Shown here piece after piece: positions 7,252 to 62,093 of a DNA stretch of 64,000 nt. The translations under genes and the position numbers were made by a program. Positions within the stretch are counted from its first letter, which is position 1. Each line of letters opens with the position of its first letter. The notes beneath the pieces are model-generated. The model ran no database searches, was not told the DNA's origin, and worked only from the letters and a program-made list of their open reading frames with translations. Location: NCBI GenBank assembly GCA_905235685.1, contig CAJOMO010000007.1:1-64000 (forward strand), given 5' to 3'. The DNA is from an uncultured Selenomonadaceae bacterium (GTDB lineage Bacteria; Bacillota; Negativicutes; Selenomonadales; Selenomonadaceae).

Positions 7252-7363
7252 CCGCCCAAGGATGGGCGGCGGACTCGTTTGCCGTTAATGAGCGTGACGC
7301 GAATTATCCGGCAAACAAGCACTTTCTTTGCAACTTTCTTTCGGCGACTGAGAAAGAAAGTTG
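7252..7363 (+). repeat. Three-hairpin repeat element, copy 1 (in mRNA leader)
   Basis: Head hairpin CCGCCC/GGGCGG with loop AAGGAT (7252-7269); middle stem GTTTGCCG/CGGCAAAC (7277-7284, 7309-7316) around TTAATGAGCGTGACGCGAAT; spacer CTTTCTTTG; tail hairpin CAACTTTCTTTC/GAAAGAAAGTTG (7331-7342, 7352-7363). Same architecture as copies at 50.88 and 60.75 kb, with different but still complementary stem bases. No coding potential seen. It ends 18 bases before the ribosome binding site of the next gene. Confidence 0.8.
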
Positions 7364-50125: not shown

Positions 50126-50146
50126 ATTCGTTGGTAGGTGATTTTA

Positions 50147-50869
50147 ATGGAAGAAGCGGCAGTACAGCAGGTTGGATTGGCGCTGGAAGATTTACACATG
50201 ATGGTAATTTTGAGTTTGACGCTCAATGTGATTTTGTTGTTCGCGTTTGCATATTTGATAGCAACGCGCGGGCAAAACGACAATTCGCTGAAATTGCAGA
50301 CCGACATAAAAAAATTGTCCAACGATTTGAAACTGCTGGACAGTAAAGTAAAAGATTTGCAGCCGAAACGCGCAGTAACAGAATTGCCGCAGGTTGAAGC
50401 GTTTGGCGGATTTAAAGCTGAAGAGCCGCCGCCCGAAATTCCCGAAGACTCCGGAATTGATTTTTCGGCGATGAATCCATTTGTGGACGCGTATAATTTA
50501 TTGGCGGCGAGTATGTCCGTGCCGAAACAGCGTCAAGCCTGCGAAAAGTTCATTAAAGACAACGATCTAAAAATGATTCGTTACGGCGGAATGATGAATT
50601 TTTTGCAAGCGGTTGACGTTGAAGAGAGTAATTATTGGGCGTGGAAAATTCCAAATCAAAAAAATCTCTACGCGGTTGTTCCAAATCCTATGATTCCCTG
50701 CGATAGAGAAGTTTATGAGCGCGGCGGTATGAACACAACTTTTGAGGCGAACTACAAAGACGGCGTCTATGCTCGTTACGTTGTTCTTTCGCCCGCAATT
50801 TTCGCCGTCGATAACGCCAACGCCTGGAAAATTGAAAATGTCGGTGAACTTAATCTGCTCAGAAAATAA
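50147..50869 (+). CDS. Unknown single-span membrane protein
   Basis: 240 aa from ATG 50147 behind TAGGTGA. Not recognised. One membrane span near the N-terminus (MVILSLTLNVILLFAFAYL, about 19-37), a coiled coil (LKLQTDIKKLSNDLKLLDSK), an acidic Pro-rich linker (EEPPPEIPEDSG), then a globular C-terminal domain with NPFVDAYNLLAAS and NYWAWKIPNQKNLYAVVPNP. No catalytic motif seen. Monocistronic. Confidence 0.65.
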   Translation: MEEAAVQQVGLALEDLHMMVILSLTLNVILLFAFAYLIATRGQNDNSLKLQTDIKKLSNDLKLLDSKVKDLQPKRAVTELPQVEAFGGFKAEEPPPEIPEDSGIDFSAMNPFVDAYNLLAASMSVPKQRQACEKFIKDNDLKMIRYGGMMNFLQAVDVEESNYWAWKIPNQKNLYAVVPNPMIPCDREVYERGGMNTTFEANYKDGVYARYVVLSPAIFAVDNANAWKIENVGELNLLRK

Positions 50870-50877
50870 AGGTTAAT

Positions 50878-50979
50878 CAACTTTCTTTTATCGTAAAAGA
50901 AAGTTGCAAAGAAAAGCGTGGCGCGGATTGTCACATCACGTGACAAGCGCGCCACAGGGGCGCTCATCCTTGAGGCGCC
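50878..50979 (-). repeat. Three-hairpin repeat element, copy 2
   Basis: Minus orientation, 25 bases after the korC stop. Head hairpin GGCGC(C)TC/GAGCGCC with loop AAGGAT (50959-50979); middle hairpin GTGGCGCG...CGCGCCAC with inner TGTCAC/GTGACA and loop GTGAT (50918-50955); spacer TTTTCTTTG; tail CAACTTTCTTTT/AAAAGAAAGTTG (50878-50906). Different stem sequence from copies 1 and 3 but the same fold. Confidence 0.8.
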
Positions 50980-51004: not shown

Positions 51005-51529
51005 TTATTTTACGGCGTCGAATCCCAACTGCAACGCCAGCATATTTTGTTCGACCGTATGAGCCGGTACGCGGTGAGCCACTGATTTTTTAATCGTGTC
51101 GAAGTCTACTAATTTTGTTATTTTTGCCAAAACGCCTAACGCTACAATGTTTGCGAATAGCGCTTTACCGACTTTTTCAACCGCTAATTTTGTTATCGGC
51201 ACGCGGATTATATTTTTAAATTGCGGCGAATTTGGAACTAAATCGTCGTCCAATATCAGCACGCCGTCCGAATTTAAATCGCTGTAATATTTGTCGGCGG
51301 CTTTCTGCGTCATTGCCAATACAAAGTCCGGCGCTTTCACGTGCGGGTGGAAAATTTTTTCGTCGTCAATTATAACTTCGGATTTGGACGCACCGCCGCG
51401 CGCCTCCGGTCCGTAAGACTGCGATTGTACAGCCTGCTTGCCTTCGGAAACCGCCGCCTCCGCCAAAATTATTGCCGCCGTTATCACGCCTTGCCCGCCT
51501 GAGCCCGATAATCTTAATTGCTTCCTCAC
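51005..51529 (-). CDS. korC: 2-oxoacid:ferredoxin oxidoreductase, gamma subunit
   Basis: 174 aa. RLSGSGGQGVITAAIILAEAA and QSYGPEARGGASKSEVIID are typical of the gamma subunit. Overlaps the beta subunit by 4 bases. Fourth gene of korDABC; the gene order fits 2-oxoglutarate (or branched) rather than pyruvate oxidoreductase. Confidence 0.93.
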   Translation of the reverse strand: MRKQLRLSGSGGQGVITAAIILAEAAVSEGKQAVQSQSYGPEARGGASKSEVIIDDEKIFHPHVKAPDFVLAMTQKAADKYYSDLNSDGVLILDDDLVPNSPQFKNIIRVPITKLAVEKVGKALFANIVALGVLAKITKLVDFDTIKKSVAHRVPAHTVEQNMLALQLGFDAVK

Positions 51530-58115: not shown

Positions 58116-60734
58116 ATGGCAGGAGAAAAATACACAGCAAAAGCGATGGCGGCGGTACAGGCGGCGCAACAATTAGCGGCGATGAGGTATCACCAGGAAT
58201 TTAATTCGATACATTTAATGTTGGCGCTGGCGAAAGAGCCGGAGGGCTTGTTGGCGACGATATTTGCGGATTGTCAAACGGATTTGCCGATGTTGAAAGT
58301 GCGGCTCGAAGCCGAATTAAATAAAATTCCGAGCGTCCAGGGGCAAGAACGGCTTGCAATGGGCGTAGATTTGGCGCGCGTGATTGGCAAGGCGCAGGAA
58401 TATTCAAAGTCTATGCGCGACGAATATATCAGCACTGAGCATTTACTTTTGGCGCTGGTGGCGGACGGTAGTTCGGTTGTCAAAGACATTGCCAAAGAAT
58501 TTAAATTGACGCGTGACAAAATTGACGATTCAATCAAGAAAAATCGCAAGCAAAATGTTACCAGCGAAAATCCGGAAGAGGCTTATCAAGCGTTAGAAAA
58601 ATTTGGGCGCGATTTGACGGCGGCGGCTCGCGCAGGGAAACTTGACCCTGTTATTGGGCGCGACGAAGAGATCAGGCGCACGATTGAGATTTTGAGTCGG
58701 CGCACGAAAAATAATCCTGTGCTGATTGGTGAGCCTGGCGTTGGCAAGACGGCTATTGTCGAAGGTTTAGCGCGGCGAATTGTGGCGGGCGATGTTCCGG
58801 AGTCTTTGAAAAATAAAACTTTGTACGCGCTTGATATGGGTTCGTTGATTGCGGGCGCGAAATTCCGCGGCGAATTTGAGGAACGCTTAAAAACCGTGCT
58901 TAGCGAAATTGTTAAATCTGACGGGCAAATTTTGTTGTTTATCGATGAAGTTCACACGGTGGTTGGCGCGGGCAAAGCCGAGGGCGCAATGGACGCCGGA
59001 AATTTGCTGAAGCCGATGATGGCACGCGGCGAATTGCGCTGTATCGGTGCTACGACGCTGAATGAATATCGCAAGTACATTGAAAAGGACACGGCGCTTG
59101 AGCGGCGTTTTCAGCCGGTAATGGTGGGCGAGCCGACGGTTGAGGATACGATAACGATTTTGCGCGGCTTGAAGGAGCGTTATGAAGTTCACCACGGCGT
59201 GCGTATTCGTGACGCGGCGCTGGTGGCGGCGGCGACTTTGTCCGACAGATATATTTCTGATAGATTTTTGCCGGATAAGGCGATTGACCTTGTCGACGAG
59301 GCGGCGGCGAAACTTCGCACGGAAATTGAGTCTTTACCCGCGCCGATTGATGAAATTCGCAGAAAAACTATGCAGCTTGAAATCGAAGTTCAGGCGCTCA
59401 AAAAGGAAAATGATTCTTCTTCGCGCGAAAAACTTAAATCAATTCAAGCGGAAATTGAAACTTTGCAGGCTCAAGAAAAAGTTCTGCGCGACAAATGGGA
59501 AGCTGAAAAGCAGTCTATATTGCGCGTGCGTGCTATCAAAAAGGAAATTGACGACGTTAATACCGAAATGGCGACGGCCGAACGCGCTTATGATTTGCAG
59601 AAACTTTCTGAGCTGAAATACGGCAAACTTCCGGCGTTGCAGAAAACTTTGCAAAACGTTGAAAAGGAAATTGCGGAGCAGGCTAAGGGCGAGCGCCTTT
59701 TGAAGGAAGAAGTCGGCGAAGAAGACATTGCCAAAGTTGTAAGCCGCTGGACGGGCATTCCCATTACCAAAATGATGACGGGCGAACGCGAAAAGCTGTT
59801 GCATTTGGAAGACACTTTGCATAAGCGCGTGGTTGGGCAAGATGAGGCTGTTAAAGTTGTGAGCGAGGCGATTTTGCGGGCGCGCGCCGGTATCAAAGAT
59901 CCGAATCGTCCGATTGGCTCATTTATTTTCTTAGGACCGACGGGCGTTGGCAAAACCGAGCTGGCAAAGGCGTTGGCTGAAGCGCTGTTCGACGACGAAC
60001 GCAGCATGATTCGCGTAGATATGAGCGAATTTATGGAAAAGCACACTGTGGCAAGGCTGATTGGCGCGCCTCCTGGTTATGTTGGTTATGAGGAAGGCGG
60101 GCAATTGACTGAAGCGGTTCGCCGCCGCCCCTACAGCGTTATTTTGCTTGACGAAATCGAAAAGGCTCACCGCGACGTTTTCAATGTGCTGTTGCAGATT
60201 CTTGACGACGGAAGGCTCACCGACGGCAAAGGGCGCGTTGTCAACTTTAAAAATACGGTTATCATTATGACGAGCAACCTCGGTTCGCAGGAAATTTTGC
60301 AGCGGGCGAAAATCGGCTTTATCACGAACAAAGATTTTGCCGAAGCCGAAAACATTATCAAGGATATGCTGAAAAATTATTTCCGCCCCGAATTTTTGAA
60401 TCGCGTTGACGATATCGTTGTGTTCAAATCTTTGGCTAAGGAGCAGGTTAAATCTATCGCCGAAATTTTGTTGAAGAATTTGAATGCGCGGCTTGAGAAG
60501 CAGATTAACGTAACTCTGAAGTGGACGGATAAAGCGGTTGAGGCGCTTGCGGCTCAAGGTTTCGATCCGAATTTTGGGGCGCGTCCGTTGCGCAGACTTT
60601 TAACTCATACCGTGGAAACCGAACTTAGCAAAAAAATAATCGCCGGCAACGTGAAAGACGGCGACACTGTTGAGATAGATTTTGACGGCAAAAACTTTAC
60701 CTTTAACGCGAAAATTTCTCTGAATAAACAATAA
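58116..60734 (+). CDS. clpB: ATP-dependent disaggregase ClpB
   Basis: 872 aa. N-domain (about 1-145), NBD1 with Walker A GEPGVGKT (about 206), coiled-coil M domain (about 410-525), NBD2 with GPTGVGKT (about 607), and [14 protein letters not shown]. Works with DnaK on aggregates. Start ATG 58116 behind TTGGAGC. Controlled, by inference, from the dyad upstream; followed by repeat copy 3, whose tail acts as terminator. Confidence 0.96.
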
Positions 60735-60747
60735 CCCAAAATTAGAA

Positions 60748-60859
60748 GCGCTCAAGGATGAGCGCCGAACTCCGCCCGCCGCTAATGAGCGTGAAGCGAA
60801 TTATCCGGCGGGCTGTTTTCTTTGTAACTTTCTTTTGCGCCAAAAGAAAGTTTTTTTTT
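60748..60859 (+). repeat. Three-hairpin repeat element, copy 3 (clpB 3' end)
   Basis: Head GCGCTC/GAGCGC loop AAGGAT (60748-60765); middle GCCCGCCG/CGGCGGGC around CTAATGAGCGTGAAGCGAAT (60774-60813); spacer TTTTCTTTG; tail AACTTTCTTTT/AAAAGAAAGTT (60826-60852) then T-run to 60859. The tail and T-run form a good terminator for clpB and reach the stop codon of the convergent hydrolase. Confidence 0.85.
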
Positions 60860-62093
60860 ATACATTTAGCAAATTAGAAATTTTACCAACAAGATTTTCT
60901 TCCCAAATGTAATTGCCGCTGAATTTTCCCGCACTGCGCGAATCTTCTTCGGAAATAGCCGCGCCATTCATCATATAAATAAATCCGGTTTTGGTTTTCG
61001 GAATAAAAAAAATTCCAGACAACATCCCGAACGCCGCGCCGGTATGTCCAATCAAATTCAGCTCAAAATCTTTGCAAAGTCGCGCAGAACTTTTGCCGTC
61101 AATGAAATAAATTCCTAAGCCGTAGCTTAAAATCGCGCCGCCGTAAGTATTGCCGTTTTTGCCGTTGTAAATCCAATGCGGCGTCAACATAGTTTCAATC
61201 GACTTTTCGCTGAGAATTTTTCTGCCGCGAAAAACGCCGCCATTCATCAGCATTTCCAGCGCGTGCGTCATTTCCTCAAAAGAAATCCTAAGCCCGCCTT
61301 GCGGTGAAAAAATCGTTGCATTCGTCCCTGCGCGATAATTTTTCAAATCGTAGACAGCTTGAAAATTTTCGTCGTAAGGATTTTGCAGGGAAATGGTATC
61401 TTTGGGCGGCTGAATCCCGCGAAAATCATCAGCTTTGCCGTACCAATCGCCGCGTTCGTTCCAAATACCGCGCGGATTTTTTTTCTGGTAAACAGCGCCG
61501 AGCATTTCAAATTCAGCGCGCTCAAAATTGCTCGGAACATAATCAGCCCTGGTTTCCAACTGCGATAAAATATTTTCCCGCTGATAAATATCAAAGCGCG
61601 TGCCGGTCACCGCTTCAATAATCGTACCGAGCAAACCGTAATTCAAATTGCTGTACACGAAAAAATTTTCTTCCGCGCCAAAATGTCCGCCGCCCTCAAA
61701 ATATTTGCCGTCCGGAGTAAAAAATTCTTTAACGCTGACTTCTGGCGGTATGCTGTAAATTTTACCGTCGCGCAGAGTTGACGTATGGCTCGCCAACATT
61801 CGCACGGTGATTTTTTTTTGCGGAAAATGCGGATTGTGCAAGTCAAAATCCAAATACCGGCTAATATCTTCGTCGAGATTAATTTTGCCGCGCTCAACCA
61901 GCTGCAGAATCGTAAAAATCGTAAACATTTTGGAAATAGACGCCGCCCGAAATTTTGTCTGCCGCGTCACCGGCTTATTCAAAAAAATATCGCGCCGCCC
62001 CAAAAATTTTGAGTAAATCTCCGCGCCGTCCCTGTAGACAATCACGCCCAGCCCAGGAACTTTGACGCCGCTGTCACCAATCAGTTCGTCCAA
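60858..62093 (-). CDS. Serine hydrolase of the beta-lactamase/class C family
   Basis: 411 aa from TTG 62093 behind AAGGGGGCG. SxxK motif in RAASISKMFTIF, YxN in FVYSNLNYGLLG and HTG in LIGHTGAAFGM. It has no signal peptide, so it appears cytoplasmic; an esterase or D-amino-peptidase is as likely as a penicillin-binding protein. Divergent from the M15 peptidase gene 54 bases away. Confidence 0.87.
   Translation of the reverse strand: MDELIGDSGVKVPGLGVIVYRDGAEIYSKFLGRRDIFLNKPVTRQTKFRAASISKMFTIFTILQLVERGKINLDEDISRYLDFDLHNPHFPQKKITVRMLASHTSTLRDGKIYSIPPEVSVKEFFTPDGKYFEGGGHFGAEENFFVYSNLNYGLLGTIIEAVTGTRFDIYQRENILSQLETRADYVPSNFERAEFEMLGAVYQKKNPRGIWNERGDWYGKADDFRGIQPPKDTISLQNPYDENFQAVYDLKNYRAGTNATIFSPQGGLRISFEEMTHALEMLMNGGVFRGRKILSEKSIETMLTPHWIYNGKNGNTYGGAILSYGLGIYFIDGKSSARLCKDFELNLIGHTGAAFGMLSGIFFIPKTKTGFIYMMNGAAISEEDSRSAGKFSGNYIWEENLVGKISNLLNV

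Follow-up and report, generated by a model that had tools for sequence, protein, structure and literature searches.

The question raised by positions 60748–60859 of the stretch analysed here (the window, 64,000 nt of DNA) is what kind of element its three closely spaced hairpins form, and what keeps copies of it alike. A sequence-only reading had recorded three copies in the window, at 7252–7363 (+), 50878–50979 (−) and 60748–60859 (+), and all three are present there with the stems and loops it described. It had proposed a palindromic mobile repeat or a selected RNA structure, and had recognized no named family in it. The source organism belongs to Quinella, a genus of uncultured rumen Selenomonadaceae of which there is no culture (PMC9585023).

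The three copies in the window

Each copy consists of a first hairpin (H1, recognized from sequence), a second hairpin (H2) and a tail hairpin (H3), the latter two recognized from sequence and folding, with a putative third-strand tract (L1) ahead of the tail. In the copy that raised the question these are H1 GCGCTC-AAGGAT-GAGCGC (60748–60765, +), H2 GCCCGCCG..TAATGAGCGTGAAGCGAATTA..CGGCGGGC (60774–60813, +), L1 TTTTCTTT (60816–60823, +), which matches the purine strand AAAAGAAA in parallel, and H3 AACTTTCTTTTG-CGC-CAAAAGAAAGTT followed by T7 (60826–60852, +). Read on the − strand, H1 of this copy (60748–60765) is terminator-like, GGCGCTCATCCTTGAGCGCT + TCTAATTTTG. The upstream gene (58116–60734, +; a ClpB-like ATPase by sequence reading) has its stop codon end 13 nt before H1, and the stop codon of the convergent gene (60858–62093, −; serine-hydrolase-like, also by sequence reading) lies 5 nt past H3.

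The 7252–7363 copy, flanked by divergent genes, comprises H1 CCGCCC-AAGGAT-GGGCGG (7252–7269, +), H2 GTTTGCCG..CGGCAAAC (7277–7316, +), L1 CTTTCTTT with purine strand GAAAGAAA (7322–7329, +) and H3 CAACTTTCTTTC/GAAAGAAAGTTG (7331–7363, +). The 50878–50979 copy lies between convergent genes at 50138–50869 (+) and 51005–51529 (−); its parts are H1 GGCGC(C)TC-AAGGAT-GAGCGCC (50959–50979, −), H2 GTGGCGCG..TTGTCACGTGATGTGACAA..CGCGCCAC (50918–50955, −), L1 TTTTCTTT (50908–50915, −) and H3 CAACTTTCTTTTA/TAAAAGAAAGTTG (50878–50906, −). The tail hairpin had been noticed earlier and is present, but the triplex tract TTTTCTTT ahead of it had been overlooked. Folded as RNA, the three copies gave z-scores of −5.0 to −7.0 against shuffled sequences; folded as DNA, they gave −6.3 to −9.0.

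Size and distribution of the family

A covariance model (R1) was built from 22 copies of the genome that holds the window, and these 22 are among its matches by construction. At E < 1e-3 the model matched this 1.96 Mb genome in about 117 places, which bears out the earlier view of a multicopy repeat; the search for more copies that had been suggested makes the window's three a small part of the set. Further copies of the three-hairpin repeat were also found by a BLAST search of the same genome. Members of the family were found by R1 in 30 of the 36 genomes of Quinella, with patchy counts per genome (from 0 to at least 63 among the matches listed). Under stricter filters R1 had no match in G003, G006, G008, G016, G035 and G036, of which G003 is a nearly complete genome; absence from these congeners would reflect either loss of the element or its never having been gained. 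Beyond the genus, 23 genomes from other families yielded a single weak R1 match. One full element (L160) is on a contig assigned to a Clostridia MAG from goat omasum, either through mis-binning or through transfer.

With Rfam 15 only tRNAs were found in the window at gathering scores, and for eight element loci searched at E ≤ 5 nothing reached a gathering score, which agrees with the earlier failure to recognize a named family. The literature search yielded no paper on the motif in Quinella and none on TTTCTTTGGTTACTTTCTTT; as far as searched, the family is undescribed.

Anatomy and covariation of the hairpins

The anatomy was parsed in 282 non-redundant copies. The element has three hairpins and a length of roughly 110 bases (range 105–190 nt). 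H1 is a perfect stem of 6–9 pairs with the loop ANGGAY and an invariant closing C-G, the other stem pairs being highly variable; despite this variation the C-ANGGAY-G loop is found in H1 of nearly all 282 copies. H2 has a longer stem and a C-NKGAN-G loop, with inner loops GTGAN, AGGAT, CGGAA, ATGGAT or similar, and GTGA occurs in about half of them. The loops had earlier been given as always AAGGAT in H1 and always with CGTGA in H2, which is true of the window's three copies but not genome-wide. Modules mix freely: the 121 copies of the own genome show 45 different combinations of H1, H2 and tail.

Joint variation of paired bases, noted earlier on three copies, is a property of the family. The covariation score was 0.295 for the own copies versus 0.091 (sd 0.011) after shuffling, and 0.529 versus 0.127 (sd 0.007) for the congeners, in an alignment fitted to the model; in neither set was the observed score reached by any of 500 shuffles. 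Stem covariation was also far above slid controls, and one-sided changes are almost absent.

A second palindromic repeat of about 33–36 nt (GCGYGGYTTGCGTAAGCAARGCRTGCTCTTTAGTA) is nested in both orientations within hairpins of the element. It was seen in H2 (L007, L018, L024, L028, L240 and L257), in the tail (L014 and L247) and in the H1 loop (L224 and L244), where it has AGGA on each flank; G004 loci have it as well.

A predicted triple helix and pseudoknot in the tail

L1, a pyrimidine (T/C) tract, precedes the tail hairpin and mirrors its stem. A third strand lying parallel to the purine arm has its T-runs in mirror order, whereas a direct repeat of the 5′ arm has them in the same order. 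In 18 of 19 tract types the 3′ T-run of L1 is as long as the stem's first T-run. Over the 19 types the T-runs correlate under the mirror rule (r = 0.96) and not under that of a direct repeat (r = −0.41), and the mirror rule exceeded shuffling (P = 5e-5, 16 types). Asymmetry occurs in both senses (TTTTCTTT/AAAAGAAA and TTTCTTTTT/AAAGAAAAAG), and one copy pairs CTCTCT with GAGAGA. A direct repeat was accordingly rejected for a mirror repeat. Since the T-runs of L1 obey the mirror and not the direct rule, the tail is predicted to be able to fold as a parallel (Hoogsteen) triple helix with L1 in the major groove.

In many congeners a short stretch just 5′ of L1 is complementary to the tail loop (arm/loop pairs GTGCCC/GGGCAC, GGTCC/GGACC, GGCTC/GAGCC, GCGAA/TTCGC, GCAGC/GCTGC and CGCGT/ACGCG). 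Complementary runs average 3.21, versus 2.70 (sd 0.06) with partners shuffled, the maximum of 500 shuffles being 2.86. The 5′ arm and the tail loop would thus pair as an H-type pseudoknot, with L1 crossing the deep groove of the tail stem. Copies of the own genome mostly lack this pseudoknot, and pairing of at least 4 nt is rare among them. Taken as a whole, the predicted structure of the element (H1, H2, triplex tail and pseudoknot) is well supported. An insert, CGCCCC(T/C)GCGAGG, is conserved directly ahead of the pseudoknot arm in many congeners (L105, L107, L108, L110, L111, L116 and others).

H-type pseudoknots with a major-groove triplex are known from telomerase RNA, and the order S1-L1-S2, the pyrimidine L1 and the use of the deep groove of S2 are shared by the Quinella tail. 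The same likeness extends to the SAM-V riboswitch, described as such a pseudoknot (PMC6061858). Both of these are single functional RNAs, whereas the strand symmetry of the Quinella repeat points to DNA. The order of Hoogsteen, pyrimidine and purine tracts is that of the class IV intrastrand triplex motif (PIT/ITM; Hoyne and Maher; Holder et al. 2015, PMC4666352). In the tail this order is present from the 5′ Hoogsteen tract to the 3′ purine tract, with tracts of at least 6 nt, a parallel third strand and T.A-T and C.G-C triplets, and the Quinella element, like PIT/ITM, is an abundant intergenic repeat. It differs from the well-studied motif of E. coli, which is G/C-rich, of class II, about 36 nt long and stands alone (PMC4666352), in that its tail is A/T-rich, of class IV, and forms the 3′ module of a 105–190 nt element with a covarying pseudoknot.

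Tail-like triplex modules (TTTCTTTGCTACTTTCTTT..AAAGAAAGTAG) without H1 and H2 were seen in other phyla, some with a possible pseudoknot: L123, L138, L149, L152 and L170 are from Prevotella, Bacteroides, Parabacteroides and Xylanibacter, others are L161, L174 and L119, and the records with such modules include a spirochaete and a Ruminococcaceae one. The tail-scan matches L126, L129, L166 and L186 were dismissed as lysine-rich coding sequence.

Genomic context

Context was taken from simple ORF calls, with 199 copies overlapping no ORF. These copies lie in 82 convergent, 97 tandem and 20 divergent gaps, versus 7, 22 and 8 for the window's gaps longer than 20 bp; by this comparison, copies track the 3′ ends of genes. 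On either strand, stop codons lie at a median of 15 nt from the element on its H1 (5′) side and 8 nt on its tail (3′) side. Both orientations relative to the adjacent gene occur (36 >E>, 61 <E<).

By a threshold picked after inspecting the data, an A-tract precedes H1 in 50 of 82 copies flanked by convergent genes (>E<) versus 7 of 36 >E> copies (Fisher P = 4e-5). The two arrangements are alike on the H1 side, and the right-hand gene alone differs. The association is strong in the own genome (P = 1e-5) and is weak in the congeners alone (P = 0.2 and 0.06). An A-tract ahead of H1 is a T-tract after H1 on the other strand, and it is found mainly where a gene points at it. The layout of an intrinsic terminator (a GC-rich hairpin, then a T-tract) is found in H1 in reverse and, by inspection, in H2 plus TTTTCTTT in the forward direction. 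A bidirectional, terminator-like element of gene 3′ ends is therefore moderately supported as a reading of sequence and context: H2 with the TTTTCTTT tract would terminate genes on the element's strand, and H1 with the upstream A-tract those on the opposite strand. Terminator function leaves the conserved GGA loops, the pseudoknot and the triplex unexplained.

RNA or DNA structure

Of the 2405 paired cells in the stems of the congeners, as aligned, 2290 are Watson–Crick, 25 are G-T and 20 are A-C. Selection on RNA from one strand should favour G-T; since G-T is as rare as A-C, RNA-specific selection is unsupported, and the counts favour a constraint on DNA structure, or on both strands, in a test that is rough because the copies are related. 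The selected RNA structure proposed earlier is unsupported, given these counts and the occurrence of copies in either orientation to the adjacent gene.

A particular RNA role was weighed all the same, in which the ANGGA loops of H1, and partly of H2, are bound by CsrA as in RsmZ/CsrB, copies in 3′-UTRs or sRNAs sequester CsrA by titration, and the 3′ triplex pseudoknot shields the end of the transcript. A hairpin loop with A(N)GGA, the CsrA/RsmA motif, is found in H1 and in about half of the H2 loops, the two such hairpins are about 40 nt apart, and the RsmZ-2 hairpin loop is AAGGAU (PMC4066749). The near-constancy of C-ANGGAY-G on variable stems also speaks for this role, as does csrA, which the own genome and most of the congeners have. 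However, csrA is also present in the element-free G003, G006, G008, G016, G035 and G036, and was rejected as a predictor of the element; copies show no co-orientation with the upstream gene, G-T pairs are no commoner than A-C, and about half of the H2 loops have GTGA, not GGA. Neither TwoAYGGAY nor any Csr/Rsm family in Rfam was matched up to E = 5. We consider CsrA titration unlikely. In its A(N)GGA hexaloop H1 resembles the hairpins of RsmZ/CsrB (Rfam TwoAYGGAY), from which the Quinella copies differ in being orientation-neutral, wobble-poor and without an Rfam match; the loop may serve as a lead and does not establish membership.

Conserved sites with replaced content

Sequence on either side of the own copies was compared with G004, a genome about 85% identical, and G003, using the first 20 kb of 20 contigs. 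In G004, 18 syntenic sites have an element in both genomes, 4 are empty and about 3 more hold remnants. The own element has a median identity of 0.835 to its G004 ortholog, versus 0.855 to a random own copy and 0.975 to the best own copy, while G004 copies are 0.91 identical among themselves. At shared sites the G004 elements mostly belong to another, longer subfamily of about 170–190 nt. In this long subfamily, which dominates G004, H2 and tail are separated by a T-rich spacer that contains GATCTCGC (for example L337, L339 and L352). Among other congeners, flanks are 90–94% identical up to the boundary and the element within is from another subfamily (L046/L176, L072/L156 and L265/L169); the same element is retained at the one locus L072/L091. 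Orientation is preserved in 23 of 24 two-flank pairs, some of them non-independent, and in all G004 pairs.

The replacement of element content at conserved sites is well supported. Old sites, kept orientation and content homogenized within each genome indicate concerted evolution. Ectopic gene conversion is its simplest explanation and accounts for the reassorted modules too. The earlier suggestion of a mobile repeat agrees with the empty sites in the relative but not with the majority, which are common to the species and have had their content swapped in place.

High copy number, patchy counts (0 to at least 63) and the four empty sites in G004 would also suit a non-autonomous MITE- or REP-like element that is mobilized by a transposase in trans and has struck the same sites repeatedly in different species. 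We find this doubtful, as independent insertion would not yield sites that are mostly common and conserved in orientation. A RAYT was sought through PF01797 (Y1_Tnp) with no match in the own genome (99.8% complete) or in G004, and no RVT_1 reverse transcriptase was found in either; both were rejected as mobilizers. By inspection there are no terminal inverted repeats, the ends AAGAGG.. and ..GTTGAT/..TGCCGA being non-complementary, and the four empty G004 sites are too diverged for a target-site duplication to be read. Recurrent insertion at hot spots instead of conversion, for which the same four sites count, retains some residual probability.

Another alternative is that these are recombinogenic structures in DNA, maintained through replication-associated template switching, in which one hairpin arm is copied from the other. 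Since such copying perfects hairpins, it would explain GC-to-CG flips without wobble intermediates: two H1 pairs are split almost evenly between GC and CG (53/49 and 53/47), and only 4 G-T and 1 A-C occur among about 735 H1 pairs. In E. coli, triplex repeats have been associated with instability (PMC4666352). Alone, however, template switching leaves the conserved loops and the homogenization over about 100 loci unexplained, and we hold it to be very unlikely.

Relation to known repeats and interpretation

The whole element fits no family tested and is best filed as a REP/ERIC-like interspersed palindromic repeat with a triplex tail. The ERIC/IRU of enterobacteria are palindromic, intergenic and about 127 bp long, and we know of no transposase, triplex tail or ANGGA loops in them. 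Likened by description, the Quinella repeat is palindromic and intergenic with no known transposase, and is set apart by its triplex tail and ANGGA loops. With REP/BIME it shares intergenic palindromes close to gene ends, high copy number and mosaic structure; it differs from their single palindromes of 20–40 nt with a RAYT in having three modules over 105–190 nt in a genome without Y1_Tnp. Gene conversion has been proposed for the evolution of REP, going by the title of Higgins 1988 as cited in PMC12306157.

The reading we prefer, to which we give an even chance, is that Quinella has a genus-level family of interspersed, modular palindromic repeats which mark the 3′ ends of genes, are terminator-like in both directions, and are spread and homogenized by gene conversion. 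Each copy would carry H1 with its ANGGAY loop, H2 with its NKGAN loop and a tail with L1 as third strand, closed in many species by the pseudoknot. Ectopic conversion between copies would swap whole modules in place and so result in the concerted evolution of copies within a genome, and the triplex or pseudoknot, formed on single-stranded DNA, would probably be a recombination or replication-pausing structure. A bolder extension, which we think improbable, is that triplex-pseudoknot palindromes in single-stranded DNA drive directional copying among some 100 scattered sites, by which a single version would take over all sites of a genome with no transposase of its own.

To our knowledge, intrastrand triplex repeats of bacteria have been known for years with no clear role. 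The present family supplies sequence evidence of a triple helix in a natural repeat, in the form of mirror covariation that extends to a pseudoknot. If directional copying is true, the Quinella repeat would be a non-coding element that supplants its relatives in place. The family's dozens of orthologous sites let the replacement of a dispersed repeat be tracked between species, and so allow a direct test of how REP-like repeats remain uniform, a long-standing question.
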